Assembly: GCA_938034445.1 (NCBI GenBank)
Contig: CALHLD010000024.1
Span: forward strand, 1-64,000
From: an uncultured archaeon
GTDB lineage: Archaea; Thermoproteota; Nitrososphaeria; JACIWG01
DNA length: 64,000 nt
Reading direction: 5' to 3'
Within the stretch, counting starts at the first letter, position 1, and each line of letters opens with the position of its first letter. Shown piece by piece: positions 30,016 to 53,998 of this stretch. Under the pieces are notes generated by a model that was given only the letters and a program-made list of their open reading frames with translations, searched no databases and had not been told where the DNA came from. The translations under genes and the position numbers were made by a program.

Positions 30016-30027
30016 TTTGGTAGCCCG
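30016..30027. repeat. right 12-bp direct repeat (putative att in tRNA-Gln)
   Basis: TTTGGTAGCCCG covers the encoded CCA, the discriminator and the start of the 3' acceptor strand of tRNA-Gln. It is identical to 25677-25688. Confidence 0.5.
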
Positions 30028-30110
30028 GGAGAGATTCGAACTCTCGTCGGCGGGTTTCTTCAGCTTAGGCTTCCAAAGCCCGCTATGCTTGACCGCTACA
30101 CCACCGGGCT
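30021..30110 (-). tRNA. tRNA-Gln(UUG) with a 17-nt intron
   Basis: Acceptor AGCCCGG/CCGGGCU, D arm GUAGC..., anticodon stem GCGGG/CCCGC and T arm GAGAG/CUCUC around UUCGAAU are intact. The anticodon loop is split after G37. Removing 17 bases (30056-30072) leaves the loop CUUUGGA with anticodon UUG. The 3' CCA is genome-encoded, unlike in the other tRNAs here. Its 3' end faces the decayed element. Confidence 0.93.
30056..30072 (-). other. BHB intron of tRNA-Gln
   Basis: Canonical archaeal splice structure: outer helix GCGGG/CCCGC, central helix CUUU/GAAG (one G-U), 3-nt bulges GGA and AAA, and inner helix AGC/GCU with loop CUAA. Cleavage between bulge bases two and three removes 17 nt at the standard 37/38 site. 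Confidence 0.88.
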
Positions 30111-42079: not shown

Positions 42080-42652
42080 TTGTGTAAGTTGATGACAAGC
42101 GAAAAAGAAGAGACAAAGAAGATAAAATTCATTGGAAAAATGAATAGAGAAAAAGAAAATATTATTGTGGAGAATGATGGAAGAATCCAAGAACTGTACC
42201 AGAGTGGTTTTGGTAAATTAGATGGACAAAGATTAATTCTGTCAAAATATGAAGCATTATACCTATTTGAGGTTAACAAAATAGAGATTTTACATAATAA
42301 TAGGAGCATGAGTTTTAATGAATTAATGGAGACATTTTATAGAAAAGATAAGGATATACTTTCCCGTTACCTAGTTTATAGGGATTTAAGGAACAGAGGT
42401 TTTGTGGTTAAGGAAAGTTTGGAAGATGGAATCGATTTTCATGCTTATCCTAGAGGTGATTATAAAGTTAATTCTATAAAATATGCCATTTTTGTACTCA
42501 ATGAAGGATATGAGATTGAGTTTGAGAAAATTTTTGAAAGTATTAAAAAAATTAAGGGAGGAGGAAATGGAATGATTATAGCAGTATTAGATAGGAGGGG
42601 GGAAGTCATATATTACCAAGTTTCTGAGGCGACCTTTTATGAAAAAAGGTAA
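42080..42652 (+). CDS. tRNA-splicing endonuclease homolog, probable structural (beta) subunit
   Basis: EndA fold: N-terminal domain, then RYLVYRDLRNRGFVVK, GIDFHAYPRG and MIIAVLDRRGEVIYY match the catalytic domain of archaeal tRNA-intron endonucleases. The catalytic Tyr is kept (Y119), but by alignment from memory to the M. jannaschii enzyme the His is Asn127 (YKVNSIKY) and the Lys is Asn159. Loss of two of three residues is what is expected of the structural subunit of the alpha2beta2 enzyme; the catalytic subunit must be elsewhere. It overlaps the prenyltransferase gene. Confidence 0.8.
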   Translation: MCKLMTSEKEETKKIKFIGKMNREKENIIVENDGRIQELYQSGFGKLDGQRLILSKYEALYLFEVNKIEILHNNRSMSFNELMETFYRKDKDILSRYLVYRDLRNRGFVVKESLEDGIDFHAYPRGDYKVNSIKYAIFVLNEGYEIEFEKIFESIKKIKGGGNGMIIAVLDRRGEVIYYQVSEATFYEKR

Positions 42653-51673: not shown

Positions 51674-53897
51674 TTATTCTTTGTCTATAAATTCTTCTGG
51701 TGAAGGTGGAGTCTCGTTTAAGCCTTTTCTTTTTCTAATAGATGCGATAAGTTGTGGAAGAATGTTTGAGGGAACAGGACTCCATTCTTTAAAGTGCGTA
51801 TTCCACATAGCTTTGCCTGCAGTTGCACCCCTCATAGCCTCACTTAAATCAAATGTTTCTGCGGCAGGTATTACACCCTCTATTATTGTAAGCACACCCT
51901 TTTGTTCAACATTTAACATCTTTCCTCTTCTAGCAGAGATCACTCCAGCAACTGCACCAATTAAATCACTATTCGCTTTTATTTCTATACCTAAAACAGG
52001 TTCTAATAAAGTTGGATTTGCCAAGAGCATAGCCCCTAAAATTGCTCGCCTAGAGGCTGGCAAAAGTTGCGCATAAGTTCTATGAGCAGGGTCTTCGTGA
52101 AATTCAGCGTGATGTAGAACAACTTTGACACCCCTGCATGGCTCTAGTGCCAATGGTCCATTTTCCATTACATCAAAGAAGCCAACTCTTATTGAATCAA
52201 TTGACTCTTGCATAAATTGAACACCCTTTGTAGCGTCAACAAACAGATTACCTCTAGGGTCAACAGCGACTACATTCCTTGCCTCATCGGCATCCCATCC
52301 ATGATCCCTGAGTATTTTTGCTATAGTTTTTCTATCAAGTTGCTCATTAATAGTATTATTTCGTATTAATTCGATAACTTCGGGTGTCAAAGGTTCAACA
52401 CGCATGAATATACGATTATGTTTATTTGGGGACTTGGCCATAACCGGTCCAGCAGACACCTTTATAGTCTCACGATAGTTTATAAGTGGTGGTGTAGTCA
52501 CTATCTCTAAACCAGTTTGAGTAATAAGTGTGGTAGCTATTTCTAAATGCAATACACCCATACCAGACATTAGCATTTCACCAGTTTCTTCATTAATTTT
52601 GATTACAAGATTAGGGTCTTCAATCGACAGTCTTCTTAATGTTTCAATAAGCTTAGGTAAATCTCTTGGATACTTAGGTTCTATTGCAATTGTCACTACA
52701 GGTTCTGAGACATAACGTATCTGTTCAAATGGAACAATATCCCTTATTGAGGATAATGTTTCACCAGCTCTTGCAGCATCTAAGCCCAACAAAGCAGGAA
52801 TATTTCCTGCTGTAAGAACACCGACAATTTCCCTAAAAGGCCCCATAAACATACTTACTGATTGCACACGAGCCTGTGTTTTTGCGTTATGTAAATAAAG
52901 TATGTCCCCATCGTGTACTGTACCAGAAAAGAGTCTACCGACTGCAACTACACCAGCCTGAGGGTCAACCACCACATTCGTGACCATCATAACTGTAGGC
53001 CCCTTTTCATCACAATTTAAAAGAGCTTGGCCTACTTCAGAGTTTAAGTTACCTTTCCATATTTTTGGAATACGATATTTTTGTGCAACATGAGGAGGAG
53101 GATGATGTCTTATTACCATTGAGAGAATAGCATCATGTAATGGTATATTTTCAGCTAATGTTCTCATGTCTCCAGTTTCATATGCCTTATATATGTCACT
53201 AAAGCGTACACCCTTTTTTTGTGCGATCATAAAATTGAAACCCCAACGGTCTTTTGCCGAACCAAATGCAACACTACTATCTTGTATACTTACTTTCCAT
53301 TTTGATTTAAATTCTGGTTCAGCATAAATTTCTATTAAATTATTGAATTCATTAACTATATTTGCAAGCCAAACTTGCATCTTATCTGGAGTAAGTTTCA
53401 ATTCTTTAATTAGCCTATCAATTTTATTTATATATAATACTGGACGAACTCTTTCTTCTAATGCTTGACGAGTCACTGTTTCAGTTTGCGTCATTATCCC
53501 TTCAACAGCATCACATACAACAACAGCACCGTCAATCGCACGTAAACTTCTTGTCACTCTACCAGTAAAGTCAATGTGACCTGGTGTATCTATTAGATTT
53601 ATAACATATGGAACATTTTCATATTCGTAATAGAGTGTAACGTTAGCTGCCTTAATAGTCATTTGTCTTTGTTGTTCAAGATCCATATAATCTAGGGCGA
53701 GAGCTTGACCCGCAAGAGCCGGACTAAGCATACCGCAGGCAGCAAGTAGACTATCACTCATTGTAGTTTTTCCATGATCAACATGGGCAACAACACCAAG
53801 ATTATTCGGGTTTAGAGAGTTTACTCTAAACCTTTCGAATCTGGTCTTTGTTGCCTATGATTTTTAATGCTTCTGCAGTAGTTTTATATCTTGGCAT
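51674..53897 (-). CDS. fusA: elongation factor aEF-2, split by a 31-nt BHB intron
   Basis: Join 53897-53834 with 53802-51674: 2193 bases, 730 residues, normal for aEF-2. Exon 1 (64 bases) encodes MPRYKTTAEALKIIGNKDQI plus R and the first base of the next codon. Exon 2 starts with NLGVVAHVDHGKTT, so the P-loop, DTPGHIDF, NKIDR and later domains III to V with the diphthamide loop are complete. Without splicing translation stops after 23 residues, and the next start (53761) would lack the P-loop. It converges with the winged-helix gene. The factor translocates ribosomes. Confidence 0.95.
53803..53833 (-). other. 31-nt BHB intron in the aEF-2 mRNA
   Basis: The transcript folds as outer helix AGA/UCU (extended by ACC/GGU past a bulged U), central helix UUCG/CGAA, 3-nt bulges AAA and UAA, and a 9-bp intron helix GGUUUAGAG/CUCUAAACC with loop UAAACU. 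Cutting between bulge bases two and three on each strand removes 31 nt and joins CGA-AAT (Arg-Asn), giving the conserved IRNLG sequence. Same geometry as the tRNA-Gln intron. Confidence 0.9.
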
Positions 53898-53998
53898 AGT
53901 GAACCACACTAAACCACTAGAAAAACCCTTTTAAAAGATTTTGGAAAAATCATGTAAACAATTATTTAAGGTAAGAAAATAATATTCGCTCTAACCAT

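Follow-up and report, generated by a model that had tools for sequence, protein, structure and literature searches.

Within the 64,000-nucleotide window (the whole stretch of DNA that was analysed), the aEF-2 gene occupies positions 51674–53897 of the minus strand and is split by an insert of 31 nt (53803–53833). In minus-strand order it runs from ATG (53897) CCAAGATATAAAACT...CAGATTCGAA in the 5′ exon, through AGGTTTAGAGTAAACTCTCTAAACCCGAATA in the insert, to ATCTTGGTGTTGTTGCCCATGTTGATCATGGAAAAACTACA in the 3′ exon. The 5′ exon (53834–53897, 64 nt) supplies codons 1–21 and the first base of codon 22 and encodes an N-terminus conserved in relatives, while the 3′ exon (51674–53802) continues from codon 22 to the stop; the insert falls at site 64 of the coding sequence (sites being numbered by the coding bases that precede the cut), between R21 and N22 and in phase 1. 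Removal of 53833–53803 leaves 731 codons including one terminal stop, i.e., a 730-residue protein in which the predicted splice junction is spanned by the peptide DQIRNLGVVAHVDHGK and which has Pfam matches to GTP_EFTU (residues 19–253), EF domains II–IV and EFG_C. The insert hence meets a first membership test for an archaeal pre-mRNA intron, that its removal restore a conserved protein in an interrupted coding sequence. An earlier note on this DNA had placed a 31-nt insert in aEF-2 just before the P-loop, which is correct to the base on the minus strand, and had held that cutting at bulge positions 2/3 would return an in-frame product of 730 residues, as it does with a single terminal stop. 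A TATA-like box, TTTTAAAAG (53928–53936, minus strand), lies ~30 nt upstream of ATG 53897 and is conserved in four intron-bearing members of the family.

With the insert left in place, the frame reads MPRYKTTAEALKIIGNKDQIRKV followed by a stop, and the 3′-exon frame contains no ATG, GTG or TTG from its last stop to the Met of MSDSLL, downstream of the P-loop, such that an ordinary start on unspliced mRNA could not give a GTP-binding aEF-2. The ORF called mechanically comprises 695 aa without the P-loop, bearing out the prediction that gene callers would lose the N-terminus. This ORF begins at Met 53761, and its product could in principle be the real protein, preceded by an untranslated leader; we give this almost no credence, given that a conserved P-loop closely precedes it in the same frame and that the upstream exon encodes an N-terminus kept intact by intronless relatives (in family f16, for example, with 90% identity over residues 1–186).

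Both junctions lie within a complete hBHBh splice-site structure (53799–53842, minus strand), identified from the fold and from motif counts. This comprises an outer helix (AGA 53842–53840 with TCT 53801–53799), a 4-bp central helix (TTCG 53839–53836 with CGAA 53808–53805), two bulges (AAA 53835–53833 and TAA 53804–53802) and a 9-bp intron stem (53832–53824 with 53817–53809) closed by a 6-nt loop. The centroid fold of the junction region adopts the bulge-helix-bulge (BHB) shape (z = −4.85, with 0 of 200 shuffles folding as well), reproducing the structure claimed earlier, which is right in each element. Two 3-nt bulges flanking a 4-bp helix at the junctions satisfy a second membership test as regards geometry, cutting at these bulges being inferred. 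The shape alone is weak evidence, as a 64-kb stretch is expected to hold ~1.55 motifs of equal quality when G–U pairs are allowed; since the G–U-tolerant count in the window is not significant, rarity was re-tested with Watson–Crick pairs only, and the resulting 9/4/3 motif occurs exactly once in the window (at aEF-2) and in none of 40 Markov-1 replicates. The main significance of the structure is that its predicted cuts coincide with the frame break and restore the protein.

Introns at the same site and in the same phase, of 31, 32 and 30 nt, are present in three relatives of the family (two congeneric genomes and a third from a different genus), with differing sequence and conserved exons; one genome bearing a same-site insert, G066, is a single contig. 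Another genome of the same genus (G001) lacks the aEF-2 region, probably through a contig gap. The source genome is a 1.80 Mb draft, 95% complete, in 56 contigs, which leaves room for the suggestion that the insert is a sequencing or assembly artefact or that the gene is a decaying pseudogene. The same-site inserts of independent genomes (that of the single contig among them) rule out an artefact, the exons are intact and there is no other aEF-2, so that either suggestion retains only a negligible likelihood. No second aEF-2 was found in the genome: PF03764 gives one match, PF00009 identifies only one EF-2 locus, and the remaining strong translational-GTPase matches are unbroken frames starting near their own N-termini. 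An intact second copy and an assembly artefact were two of the observations that the earlier note had itself named as refuting it, and it has survived both.

We surveyed Thermoproteota using as query the spliced aEF-2 N-terminus, or an intronless Bathyarchaeia one, in samples of 400 genomes from the window's class, of which 359 gave a match, and of 250 genomes from the phylum; matches that started late, were split or contained a stop were flagged, and the odd ones were fetched and spliced with a finder that required a large score gain. All counts are lower bounds drawn from the matches listed. The search for insert-bearing relatives that had been proposed with the original observation yields, beyond the same-site introns of the family, at least 55 distinct aEF-2 introns in at least 23 GTDB families (11 inside the class and 12 outside). 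Eight positions are occupied, concentrated at the P-loop and shortly ahead of switch I: sites 64 and 65 (both in codon 22), 84 (H28/V29), 88 (codon 30), 97 and 98 (both in Lys33 of the P-loop), 110 (codon 37) and 195 (shortly ahead of RQMTI, a switch-I segment). Among the bearers that have names, Nitrososphaeria JZ1_bin.63 uses site 97, Ca. Terraquivivens ruidianensis site 84, and a MAG with the label Bathyarchaeota QZM_A2_bin_28 site 64. No intron was flagged among the matches listed for families f3 and f10, which, from similarity to named loci, we infer to hold ammonia-oxidiser-type genomes.

Several individual matches bear description. The shortest aEF-2 intron (L137/L223, genome G136) has 16 nt (AGGTTTAACCCGAATA) and seems to be a BHB reduced to the minimum, its stem having 3 bp. 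In family f9, the introns of close relatives (L135, L138 and L141) range from 37 to 63 nt around a constant 10-bp stem and carry short repeats of TTAG/TTAA type in their loops. The aEF-2 match of G454 (family f49) breaks near residues 62–71 into different frames with a TAA, probably a further intron; that of G137 (family f10) has normal length and one internal TAA without an insert, probably a sequence error or point stop. A scan of viral contigs returned distant GTPases only.

Statistics were drawn from 52 distinct introns at the six main sites (64–98). Every one of the 52 disrupts the frame, and their lengths (16–63 nt) show no preference modulo 3 (18/17/17). The central helix is paired at 4/4 positions in 92% of them versus 4% of intron shuffles, and a fully paired helix together with ≥4 bp of stem occurs in 81% versus 0.07%; the BHB score served as tie-breaker among frame-equivalent cuts, and the shuffle control had an equivalent rule. 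With sites pooled, observed pairing at all nine stem positions beats 2000 of 2000 column shuffles, and several kinds of compensating pair are seen along the stem. When site 64 is taken by itself, position 3 of the stem is T–A in 13 introns, C–G in 10 and G–C in 3, and pairing at position 5 is not significant by column permutation. The central helix, built from exon codons and intron bases, co-varies across sites (TTCG/CGAA, CAGG/CCTG, ACGG/CCGT, CGGG/CCCG), a co-change of exon and intron that is required by EndA recognition and not by a translational mechanism. The membership test of compensatory change conserving structure is met, in an analysis not corrected for relatedness.

These data bear directly on programmed frameshifting or translational bypassing, by which ribosomes would skip the 31 nt, aided by the hairpin, on an uncut RNA. 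Directly after the junction there is indeed a stop codon, along with a stable hairpin, as in the known bypassing of T4 gene 60. Same-site inserts nevertheless have 30, 31 and 32 nt within one family (16–63 nt overall), and since these lengths represent every class modulo 3, no single frameshift or fixed read-through could serve them all; moreover, the conserved feature is the geometry recognized by EndA (3-nt bulges and a 4-bp exon–intron helix), for which bypassing has no need. We reject the mechanism on this evidence from relatives and consider it very improbable.

The enzymes that excision of an intron would call upon are encoded by the same genome. The structural (β) subunit of EndA lies in the window at 42080–42652 on the plus strand (Pfam domain match 42359–42613, start codon uncertain), ~11 kb away from the gene predicted to be its substrate, and lacks the His/Lys segments. 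The catalytic (α) subunit, which contig C4 encodes, has Aeropyrum pernix EndA as its closest match (3p1z, E 7e-44) and retains the active-site segments GPGIDHAP and VRKRF; in a gap-free alignment, Lys36 of this subunit corresponds to position 44 of the 3p1z chain, which we take to be the loop lysine. The loop region containing that aligned position has been linked to broad substrate specificity of EndA, and broad specificity is likewise described for the (αβ)2 type (PMC6379350). From the two subunit genes, the assembly here is presumably (αβ)2. RtcB, the expected exon ligase, is also encoded (L035, G000:C53), as a 934-aa open frame with its family match split in two, and apparently carries an intein. 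The test that the host encode a two-subunit EndA and RtcB is met, with the assembly type inferred. Another expected substrate of EndA is the 17-nt anticodon-loop intron that ARAGORN places in a tRNA gene at 30018–30110 on the minus strand; default ARAGORN calls this tRNA Pro(TGG) and its intron mode gives tta, while a splice between 37 and 38 would point to Gln(TTG).

We conclude with high confidence that the insert is an archaeal BHB pre-mRNA intron, whose excision by EndA and the joining of its exons by RtcB, both inferred in the absence of RNA data, would restore aEF-2. It is observed that the gene is disrupted and its frame exactly restorable, that the BHB has the expected geometry and covaries, that the site is conserved despite length change, that the gene is single-copy and that both enzymes are present; the transcription start, cleavage, ligation and essentiality are inferred. 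In the proposed sequence, transcription of aEF-2 would be driven by a promoter immediately 5′ of ATG 53897, the exon–intron junctions of the nascent mRNA would fold into the bulge-helix-bulge, a two-subunit EndA, presumably (αβ)2, would cut each 3-nt bulge between bases 2 and 3, and RtcB would ligate the exons to give the 730-residue protein. Unspliced mRNA would meet a stop after 23 codons and yield no GTP-binding factor, such that splicing should be essential for growth. The earlier note's interpretation is supported, and splicing remains unproven for want of transcript or peptide data.

BHB pre-mRNA introns are a kind already known, from cbf5 of Desulfurococcales and Sulfolobales (Watanabe 2002; Yokobori 2009, PMC2738675); as of 2009, archaeal pre-mRNA splicing was confirmed in no other gene (PMC2738675), and the later open-access literature that we found adds only a 5′-UTR case (PMC7714728). 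The introns described here differ in host gene (failing the membership test of location in cbf5), in occupying eight sites, and in their distribution, over Nitrososphaeria and other classes instead of Desulfurococcales and Sulfolobales; cbf5 splicing has been proven experimentally, whereas that of aEF-2 has not. The cbf5 of the source genome is itself uninterrupted, with its frame intact over 335 aa. Archaeal tRNA introns share the recognition structure and, by inference, the enzymes, but sit in tRNA, whereas the aEF-2 intron is hosted by an mRNA with no tRNA fold around the junction. In Haloferax, the BHB of HVO_1309 lies in the 5′ UTR of an EndA-processed mRNA (PMC7714728) and leaves the coding sequence uninterrupted, unlike that of aEF-2. 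In the open-access literature, we found no report of an aEF-2 intron; it is the multi-site hot-spot pattern that is unusual.

Inteins provide a further comparison, as relatives carry one in the same aEF-2 P-loop. At least seven loci have an intein at HVDHGK/TT (L006, L007 and L008 in family f4, L153 in f15, L167 and L168 in f2, and L054), a position at or adjoining the BHB sites 97/98 of other lineages; an f4 genome related to the intein bearers (L009) has none. Inteins are excised by protein splicing and are open frames of hundreds of codons, whereas the aEF-2 insert has 31 nt with a stop and fails the test of being in frame and translated.

An EF-2 tree (96 rows, one protein, weak deep branches) places site 64 on both sides of deep splits, with at least eight changes needed, against two for site 84, five for site 97 and six for the inteins. 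The simplest reading, suggestive only as it rests on the tree of one protein, is an old site-64 intron with many losses and several later insertions elsewhere; it is still possible that site 64 gained its intron more than once. In targeting invariant codons of the P-loop and switch I, the insertions resemble, by analogy, the behaviour of inteins, and casposons of Thaumarchaeota have also repeatedly targeted EF-2 (PMC6563490). We tentatively propose, at somewhat less than even confidence, that the aEF-2 GTPase domain is a recurrent landing site of mobile BHB introns, which would have arrived through independent insertions at some eight positions in or near the P-loop and just before switch I and would in part be interchangeable with inteins; their movement may proceed by reverse splicing into conserved codons at the RNA level. 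Site 64 would be old enough to span several Thermoproteota classes, in which aEF-2 synthesis would depend obligately on the tRNA-splicing machinery. In many thaumarchaeal and related genomes, the N-terminus and P-loop of aEF-2 will probably escape gene callers, phylogenies and proteomics. The multi-site, multi-family pattern offers a comparative data set for the gain, loss and movement of archaeal mRNA introns, and an intron in single-copy aEF-2 would make synthesis of a core translation factor conditional on splicing.
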